From Solicoccozyma terricola (Eukaryota; Basidiomycota; Tremellomycetes; Filobasidiales; Piskurozymaceae), in contig BCLD01000003.1 of NCBI GenBank assembly GCA_001600875.1, positions 347,712-411,711 of the forward strand: DNA of 64,000 bases. The letters are read 5' to 3'. Both the position numbers and the translations under genes were made by a program. Below the pieces are notes generated by a model that saw nothing but the letters and a program-made list of their open reading frames with translations, was not told the DNA's origin and ran no database searches. The stretch's first letter is position 1. Each line of letters begins with the position of its first letter. Below, piece after piece: positions 32,126-44,141 of this stretch.

Positions 32126-34797
32126 ATGGATCAACCGGCGGACACTTCAGACTTCAGTCCAACCCAAGCGTCTCTACTTTTCCAACCCTCAAAATCCGGA
32201 CGTGCTCAATCGCAGCCGGGCGAAGAGGAGGAGGATGAGAGTGAAGACGCTCCGAAGAAGACCAAGACCGGTAGAGCGGCAAAGGTAAATCAAGCCTTAC
32301 CTCTTTCTCTCCTCCTCCTATATCGAGCCACGATCTCCTCCGGCAACGCTAATCACGGTTCACCCTTCTTTTAGGCCTGCGATGCGTGTGTAAGCGCAAG
32401 GAATTCCCTGAGGGTGTCAGCAGCTGCAAGCTAATGCTCGGAATGTACCTATTTGATACTGCAGAGGAGAAGAAAGATCAGGCAAGTGATATATACCCCT
32501 ACCATCTATCCGATCCGATACAACCGGGTTGCAGTATCACAGCAGATGCTTCGTCGACATCCACTGACTTGCGGCACACTACTTTTCAGGTGCGACCAAG
32601 CAAAACCTCGGTGCAACCACTGCATAGCCAGTCATCTGGAATGCCTATTCCACCAGAGACGAAGACCACGCGGTCGAACCTCTCAGATAGTACCCGAGCT
32701 TCGTCGTGAACAGTGGAGAGAAACGCAGGAAAGGCTAGACGATTCCCAACTACCTCCCATAGAGGAATTCCATGCCCCATCAACACAAGCCTTTCCACAA
32801 TGCTCACCACCCGGATCGACTCCCGCTCTCCAAGTCCGTTTGGACATCTCCCTCATCGCCTCCAGACCCTTCATCAAACGCCTCATCGATCTATTCTTTC
32901 TCCACGTATACCCTTCGCTTCCGATTGTTAATGAATTGTCATTAAGACAGGACTTTGAGAATATGAGGGATGCGTATGATAAGCACTTTTACTCTTTGCT
33001 GCTGAACATATGTGCCGCTACGGCCGTGTGTCTGCACGGGGAACCAATGTGGGAAGGGCTGGAGCAAAGGTTTGACAGCTGGGAGCAAATGGGACGAAGC
33101 TTCAAGTGAGTTCTGAGTTCCTTTACGACACGGAGATTAGCCAAAGGCAGGTATGTTGATGAGGATGTGGTAATCCAGCATCGCCTTACCACCCTACCCG
33201 CTCTCCACGATGTTTCGAGAAGCCGAGAAACAAAGGTCTATTCGACTTTGCATGTTACAGAATATGCTGTTGGTGGCGATGTATGAACGAGCAATAGGCA
33301 GCGCCATTGCATTTCGATTAGTTAGTCCATCCTATCCCCCTTGCATACTGTCCTACATCTAACGGATGACTGCTGTGAATGTCTGCTTTAAATGAACAGG
33401 TGGGAGAAGCTAGCAGATTTGCCTTGGCATACGGCTATCATTTAAGATCAGAGGGAATGCCTACCCAGGAAAGCCAACTGCGTCGAGGCATCTTCTGGGT
33501 CCTCTTCTGCTGGGACAAGTGGGCAGCGTTGCACAACGGCCAACCAATGTCAATCCGGTCAGACGAGGCCGATACCGATTTGATCGATATCAGCTCCAGT
33601 CATGACTCACCTGTGGACCACTCCGCCATACTAATCAACCCAGCGGCTCTCCTTCTATTTAACCATCTTTGTCGGTTGGCTTTGGTGGCGGAACAGGCTA
33701 TCTTGAAGTGCCGATGGGCATCCACGGCGAGTTTGGACCATATCCCTTTGAGGACCAGCATGCACGGGGTCATAAGGGAGGTTTTGGCTACTCCCTGTGG
33801 GATGGACCCGATAAATGGATCTCTGCCATTCTCAGTCGATCAAGAGCCATCCGCGCAAAGTCTGGCACTTCAGTCCCTGGCTATATCTGCCTTCATAATA
33901 CAAAAAGCCATCTGCTTGGAAGTCTACCACCGCTACATACCCCTTTTCCCACCTCAAGAAACCTACAGTCCCCTCCAATCTCTCCAACAAATCGCATCTC
34001 ACATAATCAACACTCTCAAGGACGTCCCTTCTCCCTCGATAGATCGAGCTGGACCGATGGTTATCGATATGCTGCATGATTGCAGACGTCGATTAGAGTA
34101 CGTTGTACTGAATTCCGACGATCCTTCCGGAGATCCTTTCGTCATTCAAACCGCCCGAAATGATTTACACAAATATGACCGGCTATGGAAAGAGATCGAT
34201 AGATTGAGGATCAGAAGTAGACTGAGTGGGGCAATGACGAGGGGCACAAGGACACCTTCAAATGTGAACGGTAGGGCGGAGATGACAGCTTCTATGGATC
34301 ATCCGCCAAAAGGTAGTGGACGTACCGGACCGAGCTTTGTGGATTCCGAAGGGGGTGCACCAGTGTCACATTTTGACACCTCTGGTCACCAATTCAGTAG
34401 TATGGAGGCCTCAAGTTCTACGGAGCAGGTTAGTCTTCTTTACGTGAACTCATGTGAACAGCTATTGATCGTTTCTATGTCCCCCGCCAGCAGTCGCGAG
34501 GAGATTTTTTACACCAACAAAGATGGCAGGAGCTTTCGACGGACGTGGACGTGCCAGATCTGTCTTCAGCTAGGTTTTACAACTCGTTACCGTTTGAAGA
34601 TCTTTTGGGGGCAGACGAAGGTTTTACTTGGGATGACTTGTTGCAACTTCAGGCTGGTTCGGTGGAAGGTGAGTGGCGAGTGTTTGTCCTTGCAGCTGGC
34701 GGTGTCAAGCTTTGTGGCTGAGACTCTCGTGCACGGAACAGCAGAATTCCCCGGAGACCGGAGCCAGGGACGAGGCTGTGAGTATGGATTATCTTGA
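32126..34797 (+). CDS. Zn2Cys6 transcription factor (copy A)
   Basis: Exons: 32126-32284, 32375-32389 (15 nt), 32465-32481 (17 nt), 32590-33105, 33179-33320, 33400-34428, 34494-34668 and 34745-34797. The zinc cluster is assembled from four exons: ACDAC, RRRKIR, then CDQAKPRCNHC...C, giving C-x2-C-x6-C-x6-C-x2-C-x6-C. The 17-nt exon uses a GC donor (AGGCAAGT). The Fungal_trans domain follows (FFLHVYPSLPIVNE, FREAEKQRSIRLCMLQ, RRGIFWVLFCWDKWAA). The C-terminal exon is acidic (FEDLLGADEGFTWDDLL), suitable as an activation domain. A broken paralogue lies on the opposite strand around the retrotransposon at 34,992. Target genes unknown. Confidence 0.9.
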
Positions 34798-34899: not shown

Positions 34900-34991
34900 C
34901 CTCTCCTCTGTGGGGGTTGTAATGAGTGGATCAACCTACCTGAGAAACCTATTCAACCTCATCGAGTCGTTCCCCACACTTGAGGTATTAA
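34900..34991 (-). pseudogene. 3' piece of transcription-factor paralogue (copy B)
   Basis: Joined to 43,274 and leftward with one ATTAA removed, the reverse-strand frame continues from DEPLRLSFN into TSSVGNDSMRLNRF. This aligns with DPFVIQTARNDLHKYDRL of copy A. The piece soon meets a TAG. It is separated from its 5' part by the retrotransposon. Confidence 0.65.
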
Positions 34992-35437
34992 TGTCAAGAC
35001 GCGATCGTCGCCCAAGTGGCCACTGCTAAGGACCAGGCTCTGATGCAGTCTTAGAGTAACAAATAAGTCGTGGGGACACCTTCCTGATGCAGCGTAGACG
35101 TGTAGAGACCTATAGCAGCTGCGACTATTGGCCTAGATGTTGTCTTTCTTAGTATAGGTAATGGATATACTAAGTTATCATAATATTGCTCAATACAAGT
35201 CTCTGGGACTAATTCGAGCGCTCTCTTCGAATCTAATACCCCCTCCAGCTTAACACTACCTCCTAGCGGATCCTAGCGGATCCTGCGACCATCTAGGAGG
35301 GTCTGGTGACCACCTATGGTCTCGAATATCCCACTTCGGAGCTTGTCGGCGCTTGAACAGTTGAAAATTTGATGATTCGTCATAATTCGTCATCTTTTAT
35401 ACGCGTGGACCATGTTGTTCGTCTTTAGGTCCTGACA
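34992..35437 (-). repeat. 3' LTR of the retrotransposon
   Basis: 446 bp, ends TGTCAAGACG...GTCCTGACA on +. It matches the right copy except GTGGACC versus GCGGACC in the readable part. The sequence next to it inside the element (GAGGGGTACGCAC on the sense strand) is a weak polypurine tract candidate. Confidence 0.93.
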
Positions 35438-35813
35438 GTGCGTACCCCTCAATGCGAGGCCTCCGGACGAGCTAATTATGTCGATCCTATACTTGATATT
35501 TCTTGTTCTTTGAAGGTCCCCTTTGTCCAGACAATAGATGTTAATAGATTCGCACCCCCCAATGCAGATCTATTTTAATCTTTTTGTCTTAGACAACCTT
35601 CTGCGCTTTGATTATCTCGTTAAATATTTGAATATTCGATATTGTCCTGTTCCATTTGGCGTAGTGTTGTCTTGATTTCAGGTATATAGTCTTCGCTTTC
35701 GAGCAGTCGAATTCCCCTTTTCTTTTCTCACTTCATTCCATACAACATTTCCAAATATCCAAACTTCGTCACTTCAATCCAATCCACCTTATCCTTCTCC
35801 TTCAATCTTCAAT

Positions 35814-37260
35814 ATGCCGTTTTATTCTTCTCCATCCGAAAACGTTTACATCGAAGTTGCCGATACCGAAACGAAGCGTTGTGAAGAAAGTATTATTGCT
35901 TATCGATTAGCTTGGTCTGTGCGTATGTTCGATTTTTGATATTGGTGTTTTGTTGATTTTGTTTTGTTCGTAGAATCGCGAAACTCCCGCTACGAACTTC
36001 AAAGCTATTTGGAGTTCCGAACTCGAATTATATCTTTCACCAATCGAAGATGGTTTGTTTGTTAATGCATTTACTTTTCGTACTCTTGTAAGTGTTTTTT
36101 GCGTTTTTATCTTTTTTCGTATTTTTTCGTACGGAAACGTAATAATCCGTAATTTTCCGTTTTTAGAACGAAGCTATTAAATTCGGCAAACGCGTTCCTA
36201 TTATTATTGGCGGTCCTCTAGAATCAACGGGTGACATTTACGACAATCAACGAAAAGCTCTTGAACGTCGTAAACAAGCCATTCAGGATACGGCGAAGTC
36301 TTTTGCCGCAGCTTTGATTCAAGACGATACCGATTCTATTGACGCTCCTATTGCTGTAAGTGTGTTGTTTCTTTCTTTTCAATTGTTTTACCGATTATTT
36401 CTTTTTTAGTTAACTGAGGATGAATCTGCGAAGTTAGCTGCTATTGCGAAGCACTTGAAGACTATGCATATTTTCCCGGGAAGTAAAAGGGCTCTCGCCC
36501 CCTTTTACCTTGGCGTTCCGACATCCGAAACAAACGCTCAACTTCATATGAGCGTCTTCAAAGCAATTGTTCCAGACTTTGCTTTGAAAGAAGGTCAAGC
36601 CGCTGCGCTTGGATTGGAATTTCCTAAAGTAAGTTTTCTTTTTTCTTTAATTATTGCATCTTATCGTTGTTGACTTTATTTTGCTAGGTTGCCGATAAAT
36701 TTGCAAATGATATCGAAGCGGCTGTGGCGTGCGGTAAATGCAAGATCGCCAAAATTCCTTGCATGCTGAAGGATAAAACGTCAAAAGCTTGTCGCCTTTG
36801 CAATTCCCGCTCTCTCAGCAATTGCGATAGGAAGATCACCGTCAGCAATTCGAGCCAAGTTGCGGTCTCAAGTTTGATGACTGGTCTTCGTACATTTCAC
36901 CGTCTTTTGGATGCGCTGAATTTACCTACCGAGGAACGCGCTCTCTTGAATGGCGAATTATCCGACTGGACCGGCAATTTCGTTTCGTTCATCGAGGATA
37001 ATCATCCGGACATCTTCAAGGCTCTTCGTTTTTCGTTTAAGGAATTGTCGAAAGAAAGTAAGTCGATGGTCGGTAGCGTCGCCTCGACTCCGAACGCGAA
37101 GGCATCCTCCTCGAAACGTGATCGATCCGAGGAATTCAACGAAGCCGACGAAGAACTTCTCCGTATGTCCTCTGAGCGTCAAACAAGGAGCAAGAGTAAG
37201 AGGGCTCGTCGAGATCGTAGCGTTGATGAAGATAATTTTGAGACTCCACCGCCTTTGTAA
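35814..37260 (+). CDS. Antisense accessory gene of the retrotransposon, Zn2Cys6-like protein
   Basis: Exons 35814-35918, 35974-36087, 36167-36355, 36410-36628 and 36688-37260 are joined by four phase-0 introns with strong GTAAGT or GTGCGT donors and TTTTTAG-type acceptors (399 aa). The 5' leader is pyrimidine-rich. The N-terminal 200 residues have no family I recognise. Residues about 220-255 hold ACGKCKIAKIPC and ACRLCNSRSLSNC, spacing C-x2-C-x6-C-x9-C-x2-C-x7-C, which fits the Zn2Cys6 rule but lacks the usual basic loop. A helical segment (LRTFHRLLDALNL) and a basic tail (RSKSKRARRDRS, likely nuclear signal) follow. The gene is tail-to-tail with pol, 110 bp apart. The frame is intact while pol is broken, so it may be under selection or simply young. 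Function inferred: DNA binding or regulation. Confidence 0.85.
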
Positions 37261-37370
37261 TAGTTCTTTGTTTTCTTTTATTAATTTTCTTTTTGTTGAG
37301 CTTTTCCATAAAAATCCGTTCGTTTCCGTACGGATTCGCTTCCTTTCTTGTCTTTTTTCTGCATAACCTT

Positions 37371-38438
37371 TTAGTGAACTGCCTTAAACGCTTTTTTCAA
37401 TCCCCTAGTTACACCTTTCATTTCTTCTGGTTCGTGCGGGCTTCCTGCCGCCATTGTATTTCTGTTATAGAAGTCAGCGAGTAATTCATCAACGCCGCCT
37501 TCATAAATTTCCCATGTTTCTGCGTTCGGCTGTCCTTCATATCCTTTCCACTTGAATAGACATTCCAAATGTGGTTTTGACCTTGGTCCTTTCTTTACCC
37601 AATCCGTTGCTAATACTTCTTCAATCTCATATGTGTCTTCTTCTGCTGTTTCCACTACTTCTTTTGGTTGCTGCTTCTTTGGACGTTTGATGCGTTTAGC
37701 ATCCTTCCACGGCTCAACTAGATCTACGTGAAAGACATCATGAATTTTCATTGTCTTCGGTAGTTCTAGTCGGTATGCCCAATCAGAGACTTTTTCTATT
37801 ATCTTGAAGGGTCCAAAATGCTTGGAATCGAGTTTATGTGATGGTCGTAATGTTCGAATATTCTTGCTTTTCAAGAATACTTTGTCGCCGACGTTGAATT
37901 CTGGCGGAATTACTCTCCCTTCATTATAATATTTTGCCATACGTTCCTGAGACTTTTTCATATTTCGTCGCAGATATTCATGGACTTGCGTAAGATCTGC
38001 AGCTTTATCGTGTCCAGCTGGAGACATTCCTACTGTATCCGGTACATGTGGATCGAATNNAGGATGAAATCCATAATTTGCATAAAATGGTGTTACACCT
38101 GTTGTTGCGTTAACACTGTTATTTCTTGCAAATTCTGCCAATGGCAAGAATTCAACCCAGTCATCTTGCATGTAAGTAATATATGTTCGTAGGTAACATT
38201 CTANCTCTTGATTTACACGCTCGGTTTGTCCATCAGTTTGCGGATGATATGCCGTACTATAATTTGATGTGATTCCGAGGATAGTAGTAAATTCTCTCCA
38301 GAATTTCGAGTTAAACTGTGTTCCCCTATCGGATACGACGCTTCTAGGAATTCCATGTTTACTAAATACCTGTTCCGTAAACATTCTTGCTAGATCTGCA
38401 GCATTAACTTGATTTGTAGTCGGAATATAAAGCGACAT
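37371..38438 (-). pseudogene. Integrase core and chromodomain of pol
   Basis: This is the continuation of pol in a shifted frame. It has integrase SDRGTQFNSKFW, the Glu in HPQTDGQTERVNQ, the SH3-like tail HFGPFKIIEKVSDW, the dimer motif HDVFHVDLVEPW, and the chromodomain EIEEVLATDW...CLFKWKGYEG. The frame connects to the upstream part only if one A is restored near 38,441 (AAATGTCG instead of AAAATGTCG). Ambiguous bases at 38,059-38,060 and 38,204 show limited sequence quality, so the shift may be a sequencing error. Confidence 0.88.
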
Positions 38439-38968
38439 TTACTTAGCCGATCAATTATGACTAAGATTGCTGTAAAGCCTTTGCTTTCTGGTAATCCGAC
38501 AATAAAGTCCATGCTAAGATCGTCCCATGGTCTTTCAGGAATATCCAGACTATTAAGGAGTCCATACGGCGCATGGTGTTTTGATTTATTCCTGGCGCAT
38601 GTTTCACACGATTGAATATAATCTTTGATATCTTGCCGCATTCCTGGCCAGTAATAGTCTCGATTGACTAGCTCAAACGTCTTTGTTTCTCCTGGATGTC
38701 CGACTGTTTTTGAGTCATGTCTGTTTTGCAGTATTTCAAGTCGTACATCTTGGTAGTTTGGCATAACAATTTTACGTCGAAATAATAGCAAACCTTCTTT
38801 CGTCCAACTGACGTTTGGTTGTATTAGTGACGTTATTCCCCATTTCACTAACGCTTTTCCTTGCTTTAGGATATCGTTGATTGTTGAATCATGATTTAAT
38901 CCTAATTGAAGCTTTGCCATCAACGTTTTTGGTGAAGTTGATAAAACCGTAGTTTTCCGTAATTTTTC
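38390..38968 (-). pseudogene. Integrase zinc-binding domain segment of pol
   Basis: Follows the in-frame TAA at 38,969. It contains HHCC-type zinc finger features (HDSKTVGHPGETKT...CETCARNKSKHH) and the start of the core (DDLSMDFIVGLPES with first catalytic Asp). It ends by frameshift near 38,441. Confidence 0.85.
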
Positions 38969-41296
38969 TTACGGATTCGTACATAAAAATTCTTCTTCAA
39001 CTTCTTTTCCCCATCCTTGTGGTAAAACCGTCACGTTATTGCCTGGATTCTCGCTTTCCAATAGTGATGATCCTTTTCCTGGATGATAATCTTCCCTCCT
39101 TGATAAAGCATCCGGCCTAGTGGCATGTTTTCCAGGTCTGTATCGTATCACAAAATCAAATTCCTGAATCTCTTCCAACCAACGCATGTGTCTTCGAGTT
39201 AATTGTTTTGTCGTCATAAAGTATTCCAGATTACGATGATCTGTAATTACTTCAATTGGATTTTCATTATCTCGAAAAGCCACTCTCCATTCATGCATTG
39301 CGTTGACAATTGCTAGTAGTTCCTTGTCATGTATCGTATAATTCAATTCTGCCGGAATCATTTTTCGAGAGAAATATCCGTTTGGATGTAGTCTCTTTAT
39401 CTCTTTTCCGTTTTCCTCTTGAACATATACTTGACTTGCCACTGCTGCAAGTGCATAATCAGACGCATCTGTCTCCAAATAAATCACCTTTGTCCTATCA
39501 AATGTTCGTAAGATAGGTTCTTGCGTAAATAGCAGTTTTAACTTATCAAAAGCTAATTGCTGTTCTTCTTCCCATTTCCAGTCACAATTTTTCTTTGTTA
39601 GGCTAGTTAAAGAGGTAACTATTTCGGAGTACCCCTTTATGAATCTGCGATAGAAGTTAGCAAAACCCAAAAAGCGTTGTAGCGACTTAACATTATTTGG
39701 CACTGGCCAATTTTTAATCGCTTCTACCTTTGCTTCTTGCATTCTAATCTTTCCATCAGAGATTACGTATCCGAGAAAATTGATTGTCGTTGTGTAGAAA
39801 TGACATTTTGTTGGCTTGAGATATAGAGAATTCGTTTTAAGTATGTCCAGGACTTGATAGAACCTTTCTTTTACTTGCTGCTTTGAATCTCCATATACTG
39901 CTACGTCGTCCATGTACACAACTACTCCCCTTCCTATCATTGGCCTAAAGATTTCATTCAAAAATCCCTGAAACGTTGCTGGTGCATTACACAGTCCATC
40001 TCTCATAACTAGGGACTCGTGTTGTCCTGTGTTATGGCAAATAGTCGTGTAATGTTCGTGTCCCTCTTGCATTCTTATCAATTGATAGGCCCTAGGTAGA
40101 TCACACACGATAAAGATTTTCGCGTCGGCCAGTCTCTCGATAATACTTGAAATACTTGGTAACGGAGTTGCATCTTTGATAGTAAAGGAATTCAGTAGTC
40201 GATAATCCATGACTAATCTGAATGTACCGTCCTTCTTGGGTATGGCGAATACCGGGCTGCTATGTGGTGCGTTCGATTGTCTCATATGTCCAGTTCGAAC
40301 TTCGCCTTCCACGTAGCATTGAATCCATTCGCCTTCTTTCTTCGTAGTAGAATAGACCTTTCCGGCCTTTAGCTTAGCCCCTTCTACTAAATGTATTTGA
40401 TGATCGCACATCCGGTGCGGAGGTAACTTCAGTGACCCCGATTTTCGGAATATGTCCTTCCATGGACAGAATTCCTCGGGAAGGATCTTCTCGATCTCTT
40501 CCATTTCCAAATCTTCCCAATCTTCATTACCTTCCGGGTAATCGTCGGGATTCTGTAGCCATCGTACGGATTCATACAAAACCGTACGGGTTTTTACGGT
40601 TTTTTCTTCCACCGTAAGATTTCGTGCGGAAATCTGTCGTATTTTGTCTTGATATTCTTCAACGTAATCATGTTGCTCGAGAATATCGTTCGGACTTTCT
40701 GTCGTTGTTTTTAGTGCTCTATACCGAGCGTACCCCTTATCACTTGCTGCTCCGTAACCATCCTCATTGTTATCAATTTCCATTTCAGGACCTTGAATAA
40801 CCAAGTAACGTTCCGGCCAATTCATCACGACGCCTAATTCTTGGAAAAATCCCCCTCCAAGAATTATCTCCGGTCCTCCTACTTCTGCGATATCAAATCT
40901 AATCCTCCTTGGGTGTGAGTCTCCTATGAAATGTAGAGTTCCCACTACAAATTCCATCACATATGCTGCTGTCGAAACACTTCCATCGACTAACAGCAAT
41001 TTCTTTGGTTGATAATATCTCTTGATATTTGCATTCTTCAATATGTTGCTATCCTTGCGAATTATATTGATCGTTGCCCCTGTATCTAGCAAACATGCTA
41101 CATCTTGAAAATCAATCCTATTCATCGATATTCTGCAAATTAGTACAGCTTCATTGTTGGTTACCACAAACGGTATTTTCCCTTTTCCTAATTCCTTGGA
41201 TATGTCCGCTTTCTCAAATAATTCAGTAACTTTTTCAATAGAATAGGCCGCACTCAACGTTCGGAGCCTAATACAGCCTAACTCAAGCTCCTCCAC
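38969..41296 (-). CDS. Pol: protease, reverse transcriptase, RNase H
   Basis: Protease shows CLLDTGATINII and IILGGGFF. RT shows LVMDYRLLNSF, VCDLPRAYQLIRM, GLCNAPATFQ and the active site VYMDDVAVYG. Connection and RNase H follow: [44 protein letters not shown]. The frame has no true AUG at its start (GTG at 41296). It is entered from gag by a -1 shift at the A7 tract 41299-41305. It ends at TAA (38,969), which lies within a CCGTAA repeat-like insertion. The same frame then continues into integrase, so this stop is a lesion or a readthrough site. Confidence 0.93.
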   Translation of the reverse strand: MEELELGCIRLRTLSAAYSIEKVTELFEKADISKELGKGKIPFVVTNNEAVLICRISMNRIDFQDVACLLDTGATINIIRKDSNILKNANIKRYYQPKKLLLVDGSVSTAAYVMEFVVGTLHFIGDSHPRRIRFDIAEVGGPEIILGGGFFQELGVVMNWPERYLVIQGPEMEIDNNEDGYGAASDKGYARYRALKTTTESPNDILEQHDYVEEYQDKIRQISARNLTVEEKTVKTRTVLYESVRWLQNPDDYPEGNEDWEDLEMEEIEKILPEEFCPWKDIFRKSGSLKLPPHRMCDHQIHLVEGAKLKAGKVYSTTKKEGEWIQCYVEGEVRTGHMRQSNAPHSSPVFAIPKKDGTFRLVMDYRLLNSFTIKDATPLPSISSIIERLADAKIFIVCDLPRAYQLIRMQEGHEHYTTICHNTGQHESLVMRDGLCNAPATFQGFLNEIFRPMIGRGVVVYMDDVAVYGDSKQQVKERFYQVLDILKTNSLYLKPTKCHFYTTTINFLGYVISDGKIRMQEAKVEAIKNWPVPNNVKSLQRFLGFANFYRRFIKGYSEIVTSLTSLTKKNCDWKWEEEQQLAFDKLKLLFTQEPILRTFDRTKVIYLETDASDYALAAVASQVYVQEENGKEIKRLHPNGYFSRKMIPAELNYTIHDKELLAIVNAMHEWRVAFRDNENPIEVITDHRNLEYFMTTKQLTRRHMRWLEEIQEFDFVIRYRPGKHATRPDALSRREDYHPGKGSSLLESENPGNNVTVLPQGWGKEVEEEFLCTNP

Positions 41297-42630
41297 TATT
41301 TTTTTGAACTTTCTTCTCCTTGTGAATCTTCTCGCTTGAGTATTCCTACAGGTCGATAATTGGGTCCACTTTTGAATCCACTAAATGGAGCTTTAGCCGT
41401 TGCATCCGTTTTCTGTTGCTTCTTCGGGCAATTTTTGTACAGATGATCTTTGCTTGCGCAGGCTAAGCACAGCCCCTCACGGAATCGCCTGTCTCTTTCT
41501 GCTTTCTGCTCAGCTGACATTTGAGGATTCTTTGGCGGCCTGCTTGAGTAATTTCCTAACGGCTGATTTGATGGTGGATACTTTTGACTATATCGTGGTG
41601 TTTCCGTTTCCAAAACCCCTCCAACCTGCCACGGACGTGGTGGTCGTGGCCTAAATCCGGTTCCTCTTGCACCTCCAGCAAAAGTGCTTGAAGAGCGTAG
41701 GGATAATTCCAGCGTCTTTTCAGCAAATGCGGAATTACTTGCTGCTTTCTTCATGCTGTCAAGCGTGGTAGGCATTTGATTATTCTGATGGATTACCAGT
41801 GTTTTCAACTCGTCTGATAAACCTTTAAAATAGATGAAAGCCTTAGTGGCATCTTCCACTTGCGGACATCTTGCTGCGATCAATTCAAAATCTCGTTGAT
41901 AATCCAATATCGATTGCCCAACCTTTTGAGGAGTATTCCATAACTTTTGAAGATTAACTTGGCCTTCGTTAGGATCTTGATAGCTTTGTTCCATATGTTC
42001 GACAAATTTGCTATATTCCTTCATCCACATAGGTTTATCCTCTTCCTTCATGACTAAATATGGTTGTATAGTTTCCATTGCTTCATCCCGGAAGTTCATA
42101 ATAATATAGAGAATCTTGACCTTATCGAGCTTGAATTGCCTGGTATGTAGGGCGAAATGAATTTCCATTGCAGCATGGAACTTTCTCCATTCCTCCGTTT
42201 CTCCCTTCTTTCCGTAAAACATTGGAATATTTGCTTGTTTAATTCCACCCTTAAATTCGATTTCACTATCGCTTTCAGAATTTTCCGTACTTTTCCGTAC
42301 GGATCTGTACGCTTCCGTATCCTTTCCCTTTCCTTTGCTAGAAATTATTTCCTCTTCTTTCCTTTCTTCTGATGTAAGCCGACTTGCTGCTACCCTTGCA
42401 GACAACGCATCAAGTTGTTGTTGTTGTTTTTCGATAATCAGCTTCAATTCTGCTTCTACAGATGAAGTGATTGGTGCGGGTTCCCTGCCAGGAGAACTTG
42501 GTTCCGAAGGCATTTTCGTTGTTGCCTTTGTTTTAGTATACGAATATAACGGACCTGGTTGCAACTTAGCAACCTTTCGAGATCGTAGTCGGGTTACTGT
42601 TGATTCTTCCTCTGATTCCCCATTACTCAT
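41296..42630 (-). CDS. Gag capsid/nucleocapsid protein
   Basis: 444 aa. The N-terminal part is polar; the gag domain includes WRKFHAAMEIHFALHTRQF and ILDYQRDFELIAARCPQ...FKGLSDELK. A zinc knuckle CLACASKDHLYKNC (C-x2-C-x4-H-x4-C) lies near the end. The stop TAG directly follows AAAAAAA. Intact frame. Confidence 0.93.
   Translation of the reverse strand: MSNGESEEESTVTRLRSRKVAKLQPGPLYSYTKTKATTKMPSEPSSPGREPAPITSSVEAELKLIIEKQQQQLDALSARVAASRLTSEERKEEEIISSKGKGKDTEAYRSVRKSTENSESDSEIEFKGGIKQANIPMFYGKKGETEEWRKFHAAMEIHFALHTRQFKLDKVKILYIIMNFRDEAMETIQPYLVMKEEDKPMWMKEYSKFVEHMEQSYQDPNEGQVNLQKLWNTPQKVGQSILDYQRDFELIAARCPQVEDATKAFIYFKGLSDELKTLVIHQNNQMPTTLDSMKKAASNSAFAEKTLELSLRSSSTFAGGARGTGFRPRPPRPWQVGGVLETETPRYSQKYPPSNQPLGNYSSRPPKNPQMSAEQKAERDRRFREGLCLACASKDHLYKNCPKKQQKTDATAKAPFSGFKSGPNYRPVGILKREDSQGEESSKK
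41299..41305 (-). promoter_or_regulatory. Probable -1 ribosomal frameshift site A-AAA-AAA
   Basis: On the sense strand the gag end reads TCA AAA AAA TAG. Slipping back one base gives AAA ATA GTG GAG and enters the pol frame, which overlaps the gag stop by one base. A7 followed immediately by a stop is a classical slippery arrangement. No downstream pseudoknot was checked. Confidence 0.7.
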
Positions 42631-42670
42631 TACCCCTTAACATTGCCCAGATAAGGGAGCAATATTATAC

Positions 42671-43273
42671 TGTCAAGACGCGATCGTCGCCCAAGTGGCC
42701 ACTNNNNNNNNNNNNNNNNNNNNNNNNNNNNNNNNNNNNNNNNNNNNNNNNNNNNNNNNNNNNNNNNNNNNNNNNNNNNNNNNNNNNNNNNNNNNNNNNN
42801 NNNNNNNNNNNNNNNNNNNNNNNNNNNNNNNNNNNNNNNNNNNNNNNNNNNNNNNNNNNNNNNNNNNNNNNNNNNNNNNNNNNNNNNNNNNNNNNNNNNN
42901 NNNNNNNNNNNNNNNNNNNNNNNNNNNNNNNNNNNNNNNNNNNNNNNNNNNNNNNNNNNNNNNNNNNNNNNNNNNNNNNNNNNNNNNNNNNNNNNNNNNN
43001 NNNNNNNNNNNNNNNNNNNNNNNNNNNNNNNNNNNNNNNNNNNNNNNNNNNNNNNNNNNNNNNNNNNNNNNNNNNNNNNNNNNNNNNNNNNNNNNNNNNN
43101 NNNNNNNNNNNNNNNNNNNNNNNNNNNNNNNNNNNNNNNNNNNNNNNNNNNNNNNNNNNNNNNNNNNNNNNNNNNNNNTTGTCGGCGCTTGAACAGTTGA
43201 AAATTTGATGATTCGTCATAATTCGTCATCTTTTATACGCGCGGACCATGTTGTTCGTCTTTAGGTCCTGACA
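42671..43273 (-). repeat. 5' LTR of the retrotransposon, with assembly gap
   Basis: Starts TGTCAAGACGCGATCGTCGC and ends GGTCCTGACA. Positions 42704-43178 are N. The left LTR has only 318 bp over the same interval, so the gap length is arbitrary. On the sense strand the sequence after the LTR (GTATAATATTGCTCCC) has no clear TGG tRNA primer site, so a self-priming mechanism is possible. Confidence 0.9.
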
Positions 43274-44141
43274 ATTAAAGGATAGCCGGAGAGGTTCGTC
43301 ACCTTTGATGACCACCACTTTCAACTTCTTCCGACACTGGTATAGCATGTCGATGGCGAGAGGACCTGTTGCTGAATCGACTGAAGAGGGGCATAGATGT
43401 GTTGGGGTGAGAAGAGAGGTAGATCTCGATGATAAAGCTCCAAGCACACCGACTTTTGGACGAAAAGACTACAAGAGGTTGCAAAAGCTGGTTGACTTGC
43501 GAACTGAGGTTCGGGATGTTAGTCCGAGAGAGAGGTGGAACCGCCAATGGGGTTACAAGGAGAATGTTTTGGGACATTGGCAATGCCGGATTTTCGATTA
43601 TCGGTCGCGCAAAAGATGGTCGAAAGTCGGTGGGAGACAGAGCGCTGCCGTAAGATGGAAAGTTCACCGCCGTCTGTTATTCCCCCTTAAATCCACTTCA
43701 CTTGAAGGTCCGGCCCATATCCTCCCAAGTGGCGAAATGACTTCTGGGCTGCTGCGGAATGTCGTCCGTCCCCTTGCAAAACATGCCGCCATTGCCGCAC
43801 ACACATTCAAAACGATCGAGTAGGACCTGCTATCAAAGGTATCCCTTGCATCGTCCCAGTCTTTTTCAGAAAGCCGCTTCATGAACGATTAGTAGCGATG
43901 GGAAGACTTGATCCAACCATAGGTTTTTATGACTATTCGTGTGATCATGCGATGTGCCACCAAAGCGAGATCGTTTCGAGTCGTGGTGAGTGTCCACTGG
44001 AAGAGTGGCGGATGGTTCTGTGATAAGCTCCTGTAACGCCGAACCCGGCAACCCCCCGACCCCGACTATTCTCCGAAAGATCCCCGACGCGGGTAATGAC
44101 GTGGCAATAACAAATCGGCTATCCCCTATTACAAGTTTCAA
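43274..44141 (-). pseudogene. 5' part of transcription-factor paralogue (copy B)
   Basis: Reverse-strand segments match copy A in order: VFPSLLIVHE; then, after a frame change, DDARDTFDSRSYSIVLNVCAAM; FVQKSVCLELYHRDLPLF; and LAIDMLYQCRKKLKVVV, ending at DEPLRLSFN where the retrotransposon sits. The frame break between LLIVHE and DDARDTF shows the gene was already damaged. No zinc cluster is found at its start. Confidence 0.75.

Follow-up and report, generated by a model that had tools for sequence, protein, structure and literature searches.

The Ty3/gypsy retrotransposon present in the window, that is, the whole stretch of 64,000 nucleotides of Solicoccozyma terricola DNA analyzed here, carries between pol and the 3' LTR, on the strand opposite to gag-pol, an intron-containing gene for a protein of 399 aa. 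From the comparisons described below, we consider it probable that the retrotransposon has here an accessory gene that codes for a protein and is under selection, of the type called aORF-3R. The initial annotation had proposed a candidate accessory gene at this place, and the proposal is now supported by the constraint on the frame in a second copy of the element and by genes of similar plan located in the same place in other elements.

Structure of the element and of its antisense gene

On the minus strand, the element presents the order LTR, gag, pol, antisense gene and LTR. The LTR at the 3' end of the element (34992..35437, minus strand) has 446 bp, and the one at the 5' end (42671..43273, minus strand) contains an assembly gap of 475 N (42704-43178). 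The previous identification of a Ty3/gypsy element with LTRs and an ATTAA target duplication was borne out, with the two ATTAA sequences (34987..34991 and 43274..43278) outside both LTRs. The gag frame extends over 446 aa from stop to stop (41296..42636, minus strand), and in the pol region (37371..41380, minus strand) the RT, RNase H, H2C2 and integrase domains were recognized with Pfam. It should be noted that this pol is interrupted in the integrase region by one in-frame stop and one frameshift, whereas the exons of the antisense gene are uninterrupted, in agreement with the earlier description of a clean frame opposite a damaged pol. Beside the element there is also a host gene (32435-34797, plus strand) with Fungal_trans and weak Zn_clus matches; this transcription factor gene is apparently not related to the element.

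Rebuilding the gene model confirmed that the 399-aa antisense protein is encoded in five exons separated by four phase-0 introns. On the plus strand, between 35814 and 37260, exons 1 (35814..35918), 2 (35974..36087), 3 (36167..36355), 4 (36410..36628) and 5 (36688..37260) join to 1200 nt, corresponding to 399 aa and the stop codon. Introns 1 (35919..35973), 2 (36088..36166), 3 (36356..36409) and 4 (36629..36687), of 55, 79, 54 and 59 bp, present phase 0 and GT...AG ends in all four cases. Exon 4 finishes with the motif GLEFPK, and exon 5 contains the six-Cys cluster (residues 224-255, at 36730..36825) and the stop codon. A basic stretch, KSKRARRDR (37192..37218, plus strand), could act as a nuclear localisation signal. 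The gene is thus located between pol and the 3' LTR and opposite to gag-pol, which is the placement of an aORF-3R. Furthermore, a TATATA box is present on the same strand at 35683..35688, outside the LTR and 131 bp 5' of the ATG, and is a fair candidate for the core promoter of the antisense gene.

Copies in the genome and selection on the protein

In the 23.9 Mb assembly, the DNA of the antisense gene has three matches. These are the window itself, a second complete copy, 92% identical, at C1:1644691-1646136, and a remnant of 237 bp beside an LTR at C2:640927. Searches with gag and pol showed that both full gag-pol copies of the subfamily contain the complete antisense gene; its presence in most copies, as in an aORF-3R, refers to small numbers (2/2 and the remnant) and to a search that scores the best candidates only. 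A partial third gag was observed at C9:9833. The C1 element is bounded by LTRs of its own, which show only 4 differences in 454 bases, and its flanks read as a CCTTT duplication; therefore, it represents a separate and recent insertion. In this copy, the pol frame is open over 1336 aa and the antisense gene keeps the four GT...AG pairs. In addition, a short stretch at C2:1117033-1117176 (L006, L011) resembles the window protein in its C-terminal part, with 49% identity over 43 aa, and is probably the relic of another copy.

The estimate of selection is based on one pair of copies, window and C1. Between them we counted 93 substitutions in the 1200 exon positions, distributed as 12, 7 and 74 over codon positions 1, 2 and 3, which produce 16 amino-acid changes. 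No indels are present in the exons, the only ones in the gene being of 1 bp in intron 2 and of 2 bp in intron 4. When the observed base changes were dealt at random over the CDS (2000 trials), a mean of 61.65 amino-acid changes was obtained, with a minimum of 49, and an internal stop was present in 89.4% of the trials. The codon pattern, the lack of exon indels and the 16 changes against the 61.65 expected therefore indicate selection on the protein. The dN and dS values were 0.019 and 0.352 by NG86, and 0.022 and 0.265 by YN00. The initial annotation had suggested looking in other copies for a dN/dS well below 1, and the C1 copy, which keeps the frame, gave 0.05-0.08, compared to 0.07 for gag and pol by NG86 (dN/dS values of 0.0072/0.107 for gag and 0.0074/0.100 for pol). 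The constraint on the antisense gene is similar to that on gag and pol, as in aORF-3R genes, and its absolute divergence is higher than that of gag-pol.

Another aspect to mention is the distribution of the divergence between window and C1, which is of 6-14% in the exons, 4-12% in the introns, 5% and 12% in the flanks and about 2-2.6% in gag and pol. A step is observed near 37387, at the pol end, where a divergence of about 2% (gag-pol) gives way to one of about 8% (antisense gene). A 3' module swapped between lineages by recombination, or a faster evolution of this region, would explain it. The introns differ less than the synonymous sites (18/245 against 38/175 at 4-fold sites), and we count this against our main reading. 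It would suit a role of the antisense RNA itself, instead of the protein, pairing with the gag-pol RNA and tuning the copy number via double-stranded RNA or RNAi; in plants, antisense transcription of such regions has been reported and this effect proposed, according to passages of PMC7264820. We regard this alternative as very unlikely, given the codon pattern, the intact exons and the low number of amino-acid changes, all of which point to the protein as the target of selection. However, an RNA role could exist in addition to that of the protein.

Antisense genes in other elements

Four further genes of the antisense type were found in the genome. Three of them adjoin the pol end of another element, and for the fourth no pol was detected. 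The elements C1:1236479 and C2:142914, whose pol is about 55% identical, carry a six-Cys gene in antisense, downstream of pol. The proteins C1:1242 and C2:148 are mutually homologous (E 1.5e-14 and 1.0e-12), and a search with both led to C2:136, antisense to a pol end, and to C9:193 (L070:1118-1972, plus strand; C9:192.8-193.7 kb), which presents both the TATA box and an intron. In the approximately 2 kb of readable sequence downstream of C9:193, up to an N run, no pol was found, and this gene may be a remnant or a gene now standing alone. The four relatives present a common core, ASxPGAE ... (E/D)EEG ... AGLxFP, followed by the Cys cluster, in which C2:136 has lost one cysteine. Immediately after GLxFP all four have a phase-0 intron, C2:148 with CT instead of GT. 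The comparison of C1:1242 with C2:136 over 271 codons gave an NG86 dN of 0.25 and a dS of 1.04, the latter near saturation.

The candidate promoter is also found in these genes. The distance from the TATATA box to the ATG downstream of it is 131 bp in the three copies of the window gene (window, C1 and the C2 remnant), 108 bp for C1:1242 and 85 bp for C2:148. The box is also present upstream of the antisense gene in C2:136 and C9:193, that is, in five lineages. Around the box, C1:1242 and C2:148 share 89% identity over a block of about 36 bp, and an AATTCC sequence is found 25-27 bp after the start of the box, as counted by eye, in the window, C1:1242, C2:136 and C2:148.

At C2:150528 (pol 55% identical) and C2:252092 (50%), neither integrase nor antisense gene was recognized in the downstream flank read, and at C10:781709 (45%, integrase present) no antisense gene was recognized in the downstream flank. 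In three relatives we observed a second extra ORF after pol, this one sense-oriented, of about 195-217 aa (RSVSPV...), at L065:1963-2613 (plus strand), L064:1802-2386 (plus strand) and L074:2315-2965 (minus strand). These ORFs are homologous (L065 and L064, E 5e-28; L065 and L074, dN 0.082 and dS 0.444), and tblastn against the window and C1 elements found none.

Pairwise BLAST between the window protein and the proteins of the other elements gave no significant values (E 0.24 for C1:1242; 0.26 and 2.1 for pieces of C2:148). Profile comparison with two-sequence alignments gave an E of 4.9e-4 with a probability of 32%, and with more members an E of 6.6e-5, a score of 41.0 and a probability of 64%, the match being collinear over residues 147-344; for this comparison C9:193 and C2:136 were represented by exons 1-2, and the C2:148 sequence ended ahead of the frame change in its C-terminal part. 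In 60 column shuffles the best profile score was 21.1, against the 41.0 of the real alignment. Furthermore, intron 4 of the window gene is located one codon past GLEFP, thus one codon off the first intron of the relatives and in the identical phase. Nothing in the proteins of the other elements corresponds to exons 1-3 of the window gene, and this gene lacks a second intron, of phase 1, that is present in C1:1242, C2:136 and, in a tentative model, C9:193. The profile match, the place and phase of the intron and the position and orientation within the elements point to common descent; a common ancestry of the window gene and the antisense genes of the other elements is likely, but not certain.

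The initial annotation had argued that introns can survive in an element copied through RNA when they are antisense. The RNA that is copied into DNA corresponds to the opposite strand, where they are not introns, and for this reason they persist. An intron within one codon of a shared motif and with equal phase, in elements whose pol is only about 55% identical, strengthens the argument, and this one intron has probably been kept through the diversification of the elements.

Could the gene be a host gene that one element captured recently and has carried along as a passenger? Its introns give it the look of a host gene. In addition, a host-like ORF of 211 aa at C3:229.7 kb (C3:229662; L007:1135-1767, minus strand) has the same C2C6C9C2C7C spacing as the window protein, and its E of 0.045 is the best pairwise value obtained, although a weak one; this ORF is a possible host cousin or domain source. 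We rejected recent capture as the main reading, and consider it extremely improbable, because the gene is constrained in both full copies, besides being found in the remnant, and because genes of the same plan occupy the same place in other elements. On the other hand, an old capture of a host gene is possible.

Homologues were also searched outside this genome. With exon 5 alone as query, one of the 199 candidates, P0003 (a JGI sequence), is a homologue with an open frame, 124/165 identical residues (75%) and a similar C-terminus. As predicted, P0003 starts within the Cys cluster and covers only the last three cysteines; its open frame shows, at the level of sequence, that the protein survives elsewhere. 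The full 399-aa protein found none among 5863 candidates at E<=10, perhaps because the collection holds unspliced ORFs. The pair of relatives as query, with 8000 candidates scored, recovered P0001, 94% identical to exon 2 of C2:148, and P0002, which is related to C1:1242 and partly frame-shifted. Among viral contigs there were 16 pattern matches and no relatives, and the two matches of a PDB sequence search, at E 2.2, are not meaningful.

The encoded protein and its possible role

The window protein had been described as carrying a Zn2Cys6-like motif. The spacing of the six cysteines, C-x2-C-x6-C-x9-C-x2-C-x7-C, is exact, and it fits a PROSITE-like Zn2Cys6 pattern. Even a relaxed version of the spacing was reached by none of 200,000 shuffles of the protein, which has 7 Cys in total. 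However, the protein gave no significant match in Pfam and none to Zn_clus (PF00172) at E<=5; of the relatives, C1:1242 reached an E of only 0.48 with Zn_clus and C2:148 gave no match. A genome-wide search with Zn_clus gave at least 42 places, with none at the antisense gene of the window among the matches listed. Moreover, the proteins of the other elements have Cys spacings unlike that of the window protein. Because of the lack of a Zn_clus match and the differing spacing in the relatives, we did not accept membership in the Zn2Cys6 family, and only the spacing part of the description stands. The AlphaFold model of exon 5, built on six sequences, was poor, with a mean pLDDT of 50.2, values below 50 over the Cys region and above 70 in the helices after it only. 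As regards the basic tail also described before, the stretch KSKRARRDR is indeed near the C-terminus, but 13 further non-basic residues come after it.

The likeliest role of the protein, and a plausible one, would be that of a nuclear DNA-binding regulator. A TATA promoter belonging to the antisense gene, located just internal to the 3' LTR, would drive its transcription by RNA polymerase II, and the transcript would be spliced. The basic stretch would then take the protein into the nucleus, where a metal-bound Cys module and the neighbouring helices would bind DNA or chromatin, and the bound protein could serve the expression of the element itself, its escape from silencing, or its integration. 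The nuclear step with binding to DNA or chromatin is put forward tentatively, as a reading that may well be correct or not.

As an alternative, the accessory protein could act on RNA or on particles instead of on DNA: it could bind RNA, bring the integration complex into the nucleus, or control the assembly of particles or the number of copies. This appears to us somewhat unlikely. A Cys-rich module and a basic stretch would also fit such a factor, and the sole point that separates both readings is the spacing of the cysteines, which is nearer to that of a DNA-binding zinc cluster than to the nucleocapsid CCHC knuckle. A review of plant antisense ORFs proposes, in the passages concerned, import and accessory roles like those of retroviruses (PMC7264820).

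Dispersed CCG/CGG motifs

Sites of the type CCG-N2-CGG are bound by zinc-cluster dimers. A palindrome of this type, TCCGTACGGA, is located at 37325..37334, its function being speculative, and further CCG-N2-CGG motifs are found at 40582-40589 and 42294-42303. Clusters of motifs similar to TCCGTACGGA were observed between 36126 and 42330 of the window, in gag, in pol, in a UTR and in intron 2 of the antisense gene. The sequence CGTACGGA was counted 6 times in the element, against none in a background of 65.7 kb. The five occurrences of TTTCCGTACGGA in the genome are all in copies of the window element, where they correspond to two independent sites. The three of CCGTACGG in the window are all within the element, and three were reached by 2 of 100 shuffles of the window. 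As for CCGTA/TACGG, 14 of its 23 sites in the element are 5-60 bp from another one, a value reached by 129 of 20,000 random placements; its clustering is the second of 171 five-mers, and the enrichment of TACGGA in the element is the 9th of 2028 hexamers. Another enriched 8-mer, CGAATCCG, is common to the C1:1236 and C2:136 elements.

The best CG-containing 8-mer was reached by Markov shuffles in 5/100 cases for the window element, 10/100 for C1:1236 and 70/100 for C2:142, which are weak results; for the best 7-mer the values were 20/100, 18/100 and 6/100, respectively. One of six host control stretches gave 4/100 for its 7-mer; therefore, such values also arise by chance. The motif was picked after inspection of the sequence and, chosen in this way, it is a lead only, outside our main claim. 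It would be consistent with an antisense protein that binds in a sequence-specific manner to CCG/CGG palindromes in its own element, thus controlling or de-silencing its own family, a reading that we consider unlikely. In this reading, the sites (TCCGTACGGA here, other short motifs in the sister elements) would be placed through the body of the element, including an intron of the gene itself.

Comparison with known systems

The HBZ gene of HTLV-1 is a spliced antisense gene that encodes a bZIP-type protein. Its promoter is inside the 3' LTR, whereas the TATA box of the window gene is outside the LTR. As a nuclear regulator that lies antisense in a retroelement, with transcription starting from the 3' end, HBZ offers a precedent for the way in which the gene could work; PMC11963269 mentions it along with other antisense genes of retroviruses.

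For the CCG/CGG reading only, a precedent of the same kind is VANC of the Arabidopsis VANDAL transposons, an accessory protein that recognizes short motifs in the element that encodes it; both the protein and the motifs change between related elements (PMC5735166). VANDALs, however, are DNA transposons, and the binding is hypothetical in our case. If the reading were true, protein and motif would diverge together, as in VANC and VANDAL, but with a retrotransposon in place of a DNA transposon and with an antisense gene that bears introns.

In fungi, the brtn gene of Boty-like retrotransposons was reportedly described by Zhao et al. in 2011. For plants, passages of PMC7264820 and PMC11963269 describe antisense ORFs placed between pol and the 3' LTR as an established class, and the Boty-like retrotransposons of Botrytis cinerea, with brtn, represent a fungal case (passages of PMC7264820, PMC8365987 and PMC4227169). 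From its description, brtn is likewise antisense at this site, but Boty is an element of an ascomycete. The plant cases include gene23 of Grande, RIRE2, TRP28 of Retand and PvRetro13 (passages of PMC7264820 and PMC11963269), which are described with the same place and orientation, in most copies, and without an assigned function. Those passages give for gene23 of Grande its own upstream promoter and a nuclear protein. The Retand protein is described with a TRP28 domain, while that of the window has a Cys cluster. The word "intron" does not occur in the main text of either plant paper (PMC7264820, PMC11963269), nor "antisense" in that of a survey of fungal chromoviruses (PMC2864245). Among the titles and abstract openings listed, a set outside which most subscription journals fall, there was no intron-bearing antisense gene in an LTR retrotransposon, which is no proof of novelty.

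The antisense gene of the window is a variant within this already described class of antisense accessory genes. What it adds is a fungal example in which protein-level selection has been measured, together with a candidate internal promoter and with an intron that is probably common to elements with a pol about 55% identical. It also illustrates how a gene with introns can persist in an element that replicates through RNA, provided that it is located on the strand not copied as message. With its small genome and low copy number, S. terricola is a good place to ask what role such antisense accessory genes play.
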